22,663 nucleotides of DNA from a virus, in the IMG/VR virus record IMGVR_UViG_3300001850_000308, positions 1-22,663 of that record. One strand, written 5' to 3'. A model generated the notes under the pieces. It searched no databases and was not told where the DNA came from. It was given only the letters and a program-made list of their open reading frames with translations. The stretch's first letter is position 1. Each line of letters begins with the position of its first letter. The translations under genes and the position numbers were made by a program. Of this stretch, positions 19,360-22,663 are shown in pieces.

Positions 19360-20106
19360 ATGCCTTTAAACCTACAAGAATTCATTTCAAATGTTTCTAG
19401 TGACACTCTGAAAAAGTCTAGATTTGAAGTTAAATTTTTAAGTTTTCCGAGTGTAACTAGTGATTTTTTAAATCTAGACCCAACAGAAGAACCAGTGTTT
19501 AGAGGCGGAACCTTTGACGTTAAGAACCTGACGTTTCGATGTGAATCTTGTTCTCTTCCAGGAATGCAGTTACTCACTAAAGACTATAAGTTGTATTCTG
19601 GGATGCCAAACCTAAAAATTCCAAACGGTAGAGAACACGACGACATCGACTTTACCTTTATTTCTTCCTCAGAGATGAGAGAAAAAAAGGCGATTGAAGC
19701 CTGGATTTACACGATCAATAATTTCTCAAATAACAACCTGGCGTATTATGACGACATTAAAGCGGATATCCAGATAGATGTGTATAGCGACGAATTTAAA
19801 TCGGCAACAGCAGATTATAAAATTACATATGAGCCTCCATATCAAGACGAAAGATTTAGAGGCACCTTGACTGAAATAATTCCAGGAACTCCATCTGGTC
19901 CAAAAAAAGTCTATTCAATTAAACTAATCGGCGCATATCCTCTCAGATTAGAAAGTCTTCCAGTTTCCTGGAACGACACAGATGAATTGATTAAATTCAC
20001 AACAACGTTTACATACGAACAACTAGAATTTATAGCAGAAGGTTTTTCTCATAATGAAAAGACCTTTGATAGAACCAATCAACCCAGCGACATACCAGCT
20101 CAATAA
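19360..20106 (+). CDS. 54: Tail-tube-fold protein, probably baseplate tube initiator gp54 (248 aa)
   Basis: The protein has the outline of the T4 gp19/gp54 tail-tube fold. An N-terminal LKKSRFEVKF strand is followed by LTFRCESCSLPGMQLLTKDY (about 53-72), then a middle part with DDIDFTFISSSEMREKKAIE and WIYTINNF (an extended strand and a helix), and a C-terminal YSIKLIGAYPLRLESLPVSW followed by DELIKFTTTFTYEQLEF. The last block resembles T4 gp19 LWPTNVGELQLDWDSN...IQTFEVTLALDYWE. At 248 aa it is longer than the major tube protein (163 aa) and shorter than T4 gp54 (320 aa), so tube initiator is preferred, with a tube protein variant as alternative. No good Shine-Dalgarno lies at a normal distance. 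Its position before gp26 and a tape-measure gene agrees with a role in tube or hub formation. Confidence 0.7.
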   Translation: MPLNLQEFISNVSSDTLKKSRFEVKFLSFPSVTSDFLNLDPTEEPVFRGGTFDVKNLTFRCESCSLPGMQLLTKDYKLYSGMPNLKIPNGREHDDIDFTFISSSEMREKKAIEAWIYTINNFSNNNLAYYDDIKADIQIDVYSDEFKSATADYKITYEPPYQDERFRGTLTEIIPGTPSGPKKVYSIKLIGAYPLRLESLPVSWNDTDELIKFTTTFTYEQLEFIAEGFSHNEKTFDRTNQPSDIPAQ

Positions 20107-20126
20107 TAATGGAGATATTATAATAA

Positions 20127-20849
20127 ATGGCATTACCTAAACTACAACATCCTACCTCTGAAGTGAAAATACCTTCTACAAAAGAGAAGTGTATTATTAG
20201 ACCGTATACTGTAAAGGAACAGAAAATTCTTCTGATGTTAAAAGAATCATCAGATTCAGACGAGATAGTAAGAACATTAAAAGACTTAATAACTTCTTGC
20301 TGTAATACGAAAATAAACGTGGAAAAACTTGCTTACTTTGATCTAGAATACCTATTTCTACAGATAAGAGCAATTTCAGTCGGCGAGTTTTCTTCTCTTA
20401 GCTATAAGTGCAACAACATTGTTGATGACAAACGATGCGGTAAGGTTAATCAAATCGATATTGATTTGACATCTATATCAGTAGACTTTTCTGGGGTTAA
20501 ACCAAAAGAAGTACAAATTCAGCAAGGTATCTCAATTAGGCTAAATTTCCCTAATGTTGAATCAGCGAAACATATTCTAGAATATAGAGAATCAAATAAT
20601 ATCGATTCTTTAATAGCTGCTATTATTAACGACGTAGATGTAATAAAAGACTCGGAGAAAATCTACGACGATTTCACTAAAGAAGAGTTAGCAGAATTCT
20701 TGTATGCATTACCAATTGAAGCCTTTGAGAAGATCTTAGAATTCTATATCTCTTGTCCGACGCTTAAAAAGGTTGTCAACTTTGTTTGTTCTTCTTGCGG
20801 TTATAAAGAAGAGATTACATTATCAGGAGTCCAGGATTTTTTCGAATAG
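20127..20849 (+). CDS. 26: Baseplate hub/tail assembly chaperone gp26-like (240 aa)
   Basis: The frame resembles the T4 gp26 family (PF12322-type; T4 protein 208 aa): a start with HPTSEVKIPSTKEKCIIRPY, then EQKILLMLKES, FDLEYLFLQIRAISVGEFSS, and LSYKCNN. C95, C104, C221 and C224 (CxxC at the C-terminus, VCSSCGYKEE) could form a zinc site; this is visible in sequence but untested. The ribosome-binding site GGAGA lies 11 nt upstream. Its last codons are GAT TTT TTC GAA TAG, containing a slippery heptamer, and the -1 frame continues to 21034. It directly precedes the tape-measure-like gene, the place of lambda gpG/gpGT, so it is most likely a tail assembly chaperone for that protein. In T4, gp26 is a hub-assembly protein. 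Confidence 0.82.
   Translation: MALPKLQHPTSEVKIPSTKEKCIIRPYTVKEQKILLMLKESSDSDEIVRTLKDLITSCCNTKINVEKLAYFDLEYLFLQIRAISVGEFSSLSYKCNNIVDDKRCGKVNQIDIDLTSISVDFSGVKPKEVQIQQGISIRLNFPNVESAKHILEYRESNNIDSLIAAIINDVDVIKDSEKIYDDFTKEELAEFLYALPIEAFEKILEFYISCPTLKKVVNFVCSSCGYKEEITLSGVQDFFE
20837..20843 (+). promoter_or_regulatory. Candidate -1 ribosomal frameshift site T TTT TTC
   Basis: The heptamer T TTT TTC is in the gp26 frame as TTT TTC, one codon before the GAA TAG end. Both codons are read by the same Phe tRNA and re-pair perfectly after a -1 slip. The -1 frame then has no stop until 21032-21034. No clear stem-loop is visible just after it; the 10-bp palindrome AATAGCTATT (20845-20854) has no loop. Confidence 0.7.
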
Positions 20850-21034
20850 CTATTTGTAATGACGATTTGACGAACTACTTTATCTCTAATTTCACTATGG
20901 CTCAGTATTATAAGTATTCATTAACTGAGTTAGATGACATGTATCCATGGGAAAGAGAAATCTATATTTCTTTATTAAACAAGCACATCGAAGAGGAAAA
21001 CGAGAGAAGAAAAAATGCCAACAGAAATGGATAA
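20843..21034 (+). CDS. -1 frameshift extension of gp26 (GT-like tail, 63 aa)
   Basis: After a -1 slip at 20837-20843 the ribosome reads 63 residues (RIAICNDDLTNYFISNFTMA at the start, then QYYKYSLTELDDMYPWEREI and YISLLNKHIEEENERR), giving a 302-aa fusion with gp26. The segment LTELDDMYPWEREIY...L...IEEEN resembles the T part of phage GT chaperones, where an [YP]WE.E motif before a charged helix is frequent. The internal ATG at 20897 has no Shine-Dalgarno, so independent translation of a 45-aa protein is the less likely reading. The -1 frame overlaps the start of the tape-measure gene (21015) by 20 bases. Confidence 0.7.
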   Translation, partial: RIAICNDDLTNYFISNFTMAQYYKYSLTELDDMYPWEREIYISLLNKHIEEENERRKNANRNG

Positions 21035-22663
21035 CAATTTTCAAGATCTTATCAGTAAGATAGATGCCTCGAATAACAATGTAGCAAGTTTAATTAAGTT
21101 ACTTAAGCGCAACACAGCCGAAGAAAGAAGAAAACCAACGCCTCTTTCCGAAGAAAAGATCAGAAAAGAAAGACTCAAAGAATTTGAGCAGAAACTAATA
21201 GAACTGCGCTTTGAGAAAAACCTAATCGGATTAAAAGAAGACCTGGCGAAAAAACAAAAATCAAACCTCGAAAAAGAATACGATAATATAAAGAAAAAGA
21301 GGGAATCAATTAAATCCGACCTGGAAGCAATAAGAGAATCTAGGAAGTCAAGAAAAGAAAAGGATCCTCTTAAATACCTCAAAGCTGCTGAAAAGTTTAG
21401 AGAAGAAGGGGATATATTTGGTTCTTGGTTGTTCAATCTCATTTCTAAAAGAAAGAAAGAAGAAGAAAGAGCAGAAGAATACTTACGTCAAACAGAAGCC
21501 GAACAAGCACAAAAAGAAGAAGAACTAAGAAACCAAAAATACCAAGAAGAGGAAAGATTACTAACTTCTTTGGTAGAAAAACTAAAAGGTTCTGTTGCTG
21601 AAGTTAAGCCTGTTATAACAGATGCTATTCCCGTTGAGGAACAAAAGGCACCAGAAAAGGTCACTCAGGCAGCAGTTGAACAGCAAATCACTAGCCAAGA
21701 AAAGCTGACAGATGCTATTCTCGTTGAGGAACAAAAGGCACCAGAAAAGGTCACTCAGGCAGCAGTTGAACAGCAAATCACTAGCCAAGAAAAGCTGACA
21801 GATGCTATTAGGGAAAATTCCCCAAAAGAAGAGATACAGGCTCCTAAAATTCTAGATGCTTCTATACATGATTATTCTAAAGAATCTTTAAAGCAATTAA
21901 AAGAAACTCTATTAGAAGCATTTAAAGAAGGAAATTTAGCTAAGTCTTCAGATATGGGAATGGGCATCCCAGGGATCCCAGGTCTCTCGCCAACAAGATT
22001 GTTGGGTAGGGGAGCATCAAAATTGGGAGAACTGGCAGTAGGTGGTGGAGAAGCTGCTGCAGCATTAAAGGGAGCATCAAAATTAGGAAGAATTATTCCT
22101 GCTGCAAAAGGACTAGCGAAATTTGGCGGACCAGCAGCTGGTTTATTAACAGCTGGTATTTCTTTAATGTCTGGAGAATCTGCAGGAAAGGCTGCATCAA
22201 AAGGAATAGGAGCTGGTGCTGGAACTGTAGTAGGTGGTGCAATTGGCGCATTAGGCGGACCAATTGGTGCGTTTATTGGCGCAACAGTTGGAGGATATCT
22301 CGGAGAAAAATTGGGGGACAAATTTTACGGTTTCCTCGAGGATTCCAATTTCCAGGAAACTGTTAAAGACTTTGGACAAAAAATAGACGACTGGAATATT
22401 CTAGGATTCTTTAATCCAACTCCGCAACAGCAAGGACCAGCGAGAGTTCCAGCAATTGCTCCAGTTAGTAAAGAGATGTTAAAGGGATTTCCAGCAGATT
22501 ATTCGCAAGACTTACTTAATGCTATAGGACAAGTTTATGCCACAGAAGGAAAAGTTCCAACAAAAATAAATTTAACACCAGGGAAAAATGGAGAACGACC
22601 AACATATGCAGCTGGGTTGGGACAATTCATTCCATCTACAGCTGTAAATCTTGCTAATAAACT
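21015..22663 (+). CDS. Tape-measure-like protein with C-terminal transglycosylase-like domain (runs off the right edge)
   Basis: The ATG at 21015 overlaps the end of the gp26 frameshift frame and has AGAAGA 4 nt upstream. It opens at least 549 residues. Residues about 35-195 are a charged Lys/Glu/Arg coiled coil. Residues 203-262 are two almost identical 30-residue repeats. Residues 320-450 are Gly/Ala-rich; part (about 377-442, GAGAGTVVGGAIGALGG and IGAFIGATVGGYLGEKLG) is a glycine-zipper hydrophobic stretch, as found in tape-measure proteins that insert in the membrane. From about 500 the end LLNAIGQVYATEGK with E511, then YAAGLGQFIPSTAVNLANK, resembles the start of an Slt-type lytic transglycosylase. 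Position after the chaperone pair supports a tail tape measure and cell-wall-piercing role, equivalent to T4 gp29. The catalytic assignment is inference from a motif cut by the edge. Confidence 0.75.
   Translation, partial: MPTEMDNNFQDLISKIDASNNNVASLIKLLKRNTAEERRKPTPLSEEKIRKERLKEFEQKLIELRFEKNLIGLKEDLAKKQKSNLEKEYDNIKKKRESIKSDLEAIRESRKSRKEKDPLKYLKAAEKFREEGDIFGSWLFNLISKRKKEEERAEEYLRQTEAEQAQKEEELRNQKYQEEERLLTSLVEKLKGSVAEVKPVITDAIPVEEQKAPEKVTQAAVEQQITSQEKLTDAILVEEQKAPEKVTQAAVEQQITSQEKLTDAIRENSPKEEIQAPKILDASIHDYSKESLKQLKETLLEAFKEGNLAKSSDMGMGIPGIPGLSPTRLLGRGASKLGELAVGGGEAAAALKGASKLGRIIPAAKGLAKFGGPAAGLLTAGISLMSGESAGKAASKGIGAGAGTVVGGAIGALGGPIGAFIGATVGGYLGEKLGDKFYGFLEDSNFQETVKDFGQKIDDWNILGFFNPTPQQQGPARVPAIAPVSKEMLKGFPADYSQDLLNAIGQVYATEGKVPTKINLTPGKNGERPTYAAGLGQFIPSTAVNLANK
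21621..21809 (+). repeat. 90-bp tandem duplication in the tape-measure gene
   Basis: Copies lie at 21621-21710 and 21711-21800, followed by a 9-nt start of a third copy to 21809. The two copies differ at one base (C21631 versus T21721), a Pro to Leu change. A 12-nt match, ACAGATGCTATT, lies at the junctions. The unit is 30 codons, so the frame is kept. Confidence 0.95.

Follow-up and report, generated by a model that had tools for sequence, protein, structure and literature searches.

Results

A predicted −1 frameshift at the end of gp26

In this T4-type phage, a −1 frameshift of the lambda G/GT type very probably yields both a short and a long tail assembly chaperone from a single gp26 gene. 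Such an extension of gp26 had been proposed in a first-pass annotation and is supported here by comparative evidence, from which we infer the shift itself. The window, i.e., the whole analysed stretch of 22,663 nucleotides, comprises positions 1 to 22,663 of the IMG/VR virus record IMGVR_UViG_3300001850_000308; the region 19800–22663 was read and its ORFs were listed. The features of the window described below lie on the plus strand.

The gp26 gene (20127..20849) encodes the 240-AA short form and ends with the codons GTC CAG GAT TTT TTC GAA TAG. The slippery heptamer T_TTT_TTC (20837..20843) stands in the phase required for tandem −1 slippage and is followed by GAA and then by the zero-frame stop TAG (20847..20849); its placement in frame, one codon ahead of the gp26 stop, had been annotated exactly to the base. 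After a −1 slip the C of the heptamer (20843) would be read twice, now as the first base of CGA, and translation would continue as TTT TTT CGA ATA GCT..., giving the junction VQDFF-RIAICNDDL.... The −1 frame (20843..21034), encoding the gp51-type domain of the long form, remains open for 63 codons up to a TAA at 21032–21034, and the predicted fusion of gp26 with this tail has 302 AA. The length of this frame and the 45-AA frame inside it, which begins at ATG 20897, had likewise been given with correct counts and coordinates. A Shine-Dalgarno (SD)-like AGGAG (20825..20829), a candidate stimulator suggested by the sequence and by the codon bias of relatives, lies 7 nt upstream of the heptamer.

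The tail overlaps by 20 nt the start of the next gene (21015..22663), which runs off the window and partially matches the tape measure families phrog_167 (E 1e-8) and phrog_973 (E 3e-6), in agreement with the annotated order of chaperone followed by tape measure. The same order is found in the annotation of Rhizobium phage RHph_I1_18 and HTVC008M. Within the tape measure gene, positions 21618–21809 of the window hold a recent in-frame repeat, a 90-bp unit duplicated in tandem (2.1 copies, 99% match). Immediately upstream of gp26 lies a tail-tube-like gene (19360..20106; phrog_45 tail tube, E 3e-36). The source record (22,663 bases) contains one PF12322 gene, although this fragment alone cannot rule out a second.

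Family and modelled structure of gp26

The gp26 protein matched PF12322, the T4 gp26 / T4_baseplate family, over profile positions 2–219 of 219 (E 8e-47, 160 bits; curated cut-off 24.5 bits) and phrog_150 with E 1e-52. Its AlphaFold2 model had a mean pLDDT of 93. A Foldseek search of the model against the PDB gave no significant match, a sequence search for relatives with solved structure returned weak unrelated matches only, and nothing relevant emerged from the NCBIfam search. When PDB chains were re-aligned with VIA-align 2, the top chain was the HK97 tail assembly chaperone (TAC) 2ob9 (Z 7.6, 84 aligned residues, 3.7 Å), followed by YqbN 3klu (Z 7.3), and the next best had a Z of 4.6. HK97 TAC and YqbN are the two solved tail assembly chaperones, and their matches cover gp26 residues 1–87; a Z of 7–8 alone can reflect a common arrangement. 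The model thus lends support, short of proof, to the N-terminal domain of gp26 having the fold of a tail assembly chaperone.

The −1 tail corresponds to the gp51 domain

Searched on its own, the −1 tail matched positions 56–118 of 121 of phrog_634, the gp51 family annotated as ‘baseplate hub assembly catalyst’ (E 5e-23). T4 gp51 (249 AA) joins a PF12322 domain (residues 1–201) and the tail in one chain, and T4 gp26 (208 AA) is the PF12322 domain without the tail. A profile built from the predicted fusions aligned across the junction with the whole of T4 gp51 (profile positions 23–283), which bears out the suggested tie to that protein; the alignment of the same profile with T4 gp26 stopped at the FF motif. 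Comparison of these proteins shows the predicted fusion of gp26 and tail to be equivalent to T4 gp51. For P-SSM2, the predicted junction peptide is ...LQSFFRISMAHEDLESYYK. In Campylobacter phage vB_CjeM_WX1 (L048:2356-3096), a single 246-AA ORF comprises a gp26-type domain and a gp51-type tail, and thus a fused long gene occurs also outside Tevenvirinae.

Conservation of the slip site and of the −1 frame

Homologous loci were collected from viral contigs (37 + 80 loci), contigs of bacterial and archaeal genomes (59 loci) and named phages; removal of near-duplicates left 159 non-redundant loci, with 157 complete cases. All of the first 35 complete loci (35/35) carried TTTTTTC or TTTTTTT before the stop together with a homologous open −1 tail. 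Conservation of the heptamer had been set beforehand as a test that could refute the frameshift, and T_TTT_TTN was kept in 158/159 non-redundant loci vs. 71.5 expected from the amino acids and the codon usage of the genes themselves. The log10 probability of this excess is about −57, to be taken as a scale and not as an exact value since the loci share ancestry. The last base of the heptamer in the 158 loci was C in 103, T in 45, A in 8 and G in 2. Other Phe-Phe pairs in the same genes were written as T_TTT_TT in 12 of 138 cases. These comparisons indicate selection on the heptamer itself, over and above that on the encoded amino acids.

The second frame was intact in the homologues too: the −1 tail was open for 53–73 codons in 157/157 complete loci, with 0 stops per 50 codons vs. 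5.9 and 5.3 in the other two frames. Raw pN/pS was 0.29 in the −1 frame vs. 0.92 and 2.27 in the others, and the differences between tails fell mostly on third codon positions. Both the heptamer and the −1 frame stay conserved down to about 25–30% protein identity. Comparison across the loci shows the −1 frame to be coding, evolving as a protein.

Several loci depart from the common pattern. The sole exception among the 159, L173, ends its gp26 ORF with ACG TTT TTT; the resulting GTTTTTT is similar to GTTTTT, the motif described for Vandenendeviridae. In Rhizobium phage RHph_I1_18 (L043:3690-3880), a TTTTTTA lies eleven codons before the gp26 stop and is directly followed by an overlapping TTTAAAC, and its two frames share a longer overlap than those of the other relatives. 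Relatives from the Ackermannviridae (Mooltan, IME250, Vibrio 1.255, K444, K448) keep the tail but lack the T6 heptamer; the T6 rule is therefore not universal. Ackermannviridae-type gp26 homologues (at L045:3760-3960, L196:2760-2960, L194:2106-2330, L197:2178-2405 and L046:3615-3880) retain a homologous −1 tail and have A_ATT_TTC or A_CTT_TTY in place of T6. The three Vibrio homologues of this type have TAATG at the gp26 stop. In the Ackermannviridae-type phages the long form may be made by slippage of a single tRNA, or may have been replaced by reinitiation.

Absence of a separate conserved tail start

A strong ribosome-binding site belonging to the 45-AA frame had been named as another possible refutation, and the homologues show no conserved, SD-preceded start in the downstream frame. 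In the window, no SD precedes ATG 20897. The first ATGs of the tail frame are scattered among relatives, mostly at residues 18–19, and most of them lie behind the conserved residues L8, N10, Y12, N15 and F16. The mean anti-SD energy was −0.3 kcal/mol before the tail ATGs vs. −5.6 kcal/mol before gp26, and protein conservation of the tail extends right up to the heptamer. Annotated gp51 starts vary between phages in public records. In 30/157 relatives the tail frame has an ATG no more than 12 nt away from the gp26 stop, and in some of these 30 reinitiation may contribute; the window has none there in that frame. Comparison among the relatives shows that a separate conserved start of the tail is absent.

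Candidate stimulatory elements

Codon choice ahead of the heptamer is biased. The conserved Glu-Gly ahead of the site is preferentially written with GAG (51/98, background 22%, p 8e-11) and with GGA or GGG (86/152, background 36%, p 1e-7); since the loci share ancestry, both p values are to be taken as scales. Together, the two biases place an SD-like element roughly ten bases ahead of the heptamer. In dnaX, SD-like elements at a comparable upstream place stimulate −1 shifting. The SD-like sequence of the window would probably raise the slip rate. No signal of a downstream RNA structure as stimulator was detected over 60 nt in 157 loci. A strong heptamer needs no such structure.

Slip site versus a second PF12322 gene

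Among complete genomes, a slip site together with one PF12322 gene was found in P-SSM2, P-SSM4, HTVC008M, Melnitz-1, nt-1, pf16, Moby and RHph_I1_18; in all of these except RHph_I1_18 a TTTTTTN lies beside the stop. The complete genomes of T4, Cronus and CGG4-1 have two PF12322 genes. In these three phages and in G28 the Phe-Phe pair is kept as TTC TTT after GAG or GAA, so that the heptamer is broken, and no homologous −1 tail was found behind gp26 in Cronus, CGG4-1 and G28. Slip site and second PF12322 gene were mutually exclusive in all cases checked. In Ackermannviridae the T6 site is absent, and Mooltan is also without a second PF12322 gene. Outside the T4 subgroup, the same −1 slip is predicted for almost every relative examined.

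We somewhat favor an evolutionary scheme in which the ancestral route to the long chaperone across T4-type phages was a −1 shift, tuned by a selected SD-like element and not by RNA structure. T4 gene 51 would then be secondary, gp26 having been duplicated with the tail joined in frame, after which the gp26 slip site was broken to TTC TTT.

Discussion

In the mechanism we propose, the majority of ribosomes would terminate at 20847–20849 and release the 240-AA short form, and a minority would slip back by one base on T_TTT_TTC, bypass the stop and translate 63 further codons into the 302-AA long form, which would carry the domain that other records name gp51. If the two forms act as in lambda G/GT, the tape measure protein, whose gene comes next, would be coated by many copies of the short form, and a few copies of the long form would use their extra domain to bring in tail-tube or hub subunits; the product of the upstream tail-tube-like gene may be such a partner of the long form. 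In the T4 subgroup, where the slip site is gone, the two lengths come from two genes, 26 and 51. We infer the slippage, its rate, the effect of the SD-like element and the binding partners of each form from these comparisons and analogies.

The existing annotation offers a different reading, namely that gp51 is a separate short gene, starting at TTG 20867 or ATG 20897, with translation either on its own or through reinitiation once ribosomes have stopped at the end of gp26. Most public records do annotate gp51 genes of about 45–61 AA, and a start close to the stop, as in the 30 relatives mentioned above or in the TAATG overlap of nt-1, K575 and Vibrio 1.255, would suit reinitiation. Yet the scattered first ATGs lack an SD and follow conserved residues, conservation reaches the heptamer, which is itself selected beyond its amino acids, and T4 gp51 joins a gp26-type domain and the tail in one chain. 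We consider a separate gp51 gene very unlikely.

Slippage could also be placed on the RNA polymerase and not on the ribosome, the site being a homopolymer run. The run consists of just six T in 112 of 157 loci (seven in 30, eight in 13 and nine in one), and typical transcriptional slippage sites are longer than this. Moreover, the phase of the run is always X_XXY_YYZ, and the bias of the codons ahead of it towards an SD-like element points to the ribosome; we consider transcriptional slippage very unlikely. That a T-rich stretch lies beside an unrelated small ORF merely by chance might be thought of for an AT-rich phage genome, with about 0.2 other in-frame T_TTT_TTN per gene in the family; this reading is refuted by the conservation of the site in 158/159 loci, the coding −1 frame and the gp51-family match, and we give it practically no credence. 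Ribosomal −1 frameshifting on the heptamer is hence the reading we retain.

With a single recoded gene, two incorrect gene models would be dropped: gp26 as a complete gene, and a ‘truncated’ gp51 whose start had been guessed. This correction probably reaches hundreds of cyanophage, pelagiphage and related records; the tail matched 559 phage records, a minority of which were inspected individually. The alternation of slip site and duplicated gene offers a natural experiment on why two chaperone lengths are made and on what sets their ratio.

Comparison with known systems

Sullivan et al. 2010 (PMC3037559) described gp51 of cyanophages and marine vibriophages as missing the N-terminal ~200 AA of the T4-type protein; for the cyanophages this was interpreted as a shortened gene; the searched portion of that article contains no mention of frameshifting. 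Their ‘truncated gp51’ is the same tail as that in the window, and the predicted frameshift would explain their observation of a short marine gp51 and its truncated look. No earlier report of a cyanophage gp26/gp51 frameshift was found in the open-access papers searched.

The T4-like tail assembly chaperones were identified by Vladimirov et al. 2022, a work accessible to us through PMC10885494 and PMC12846349, and according to the PRFect study some T4-like phages do not frameshift but carry one short gene and one long, fused gene (PMC10885494). We found no earlier mention of the SD-like codon bias or of the codon contrast with T4, both of which Vladimirov et al. 2022, known via the citing papers, may contain. 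T4 gp26 and gp51, the hub assembly chaperones, have the same domains as the two forms predicted here, gp26 corresponding to the short form and gp51 to the domain plus tail; T4 encodes them in two genes that are transcribed divergently and lack a slip site, whereas the window uses one gene.

For phage Adele, a chaperone frameshift at GTTTTT has been described for Vandenendeviridae/Andersonviridae (PMC12846349). As in the window, a poly-T −1 site lies at the end of the chaperone gene of a contractile-tailed phage and the downstream frame is usually annotated as its own ORF; the phage family and the motif differ, and the likeness rests on the site and the annotation.

Another close system is the classical lambda gpG/gpGT tail assembly chaperone frameshift (Levin 1993; Xu, Hendrix and Duda 2004; both as cited in PMC5009743), which according to a 2016 review is conserved in a wide range of long-tailed phages ‘except T4’ (PMC5009743). 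As in lambda G/GT, the putative −1 shift of the window falls close to where the short chaperone gene ends, the tape measure gene follows downstream, and the predicted long form has an extra C-terminal domain; unlike it, the protein belongs to PF12322, the heptamer is T_TTT_TTC and an SD-like upstream element is suggested. The mechanism class is thus already known, and the locus in the window is a well supported member of it.
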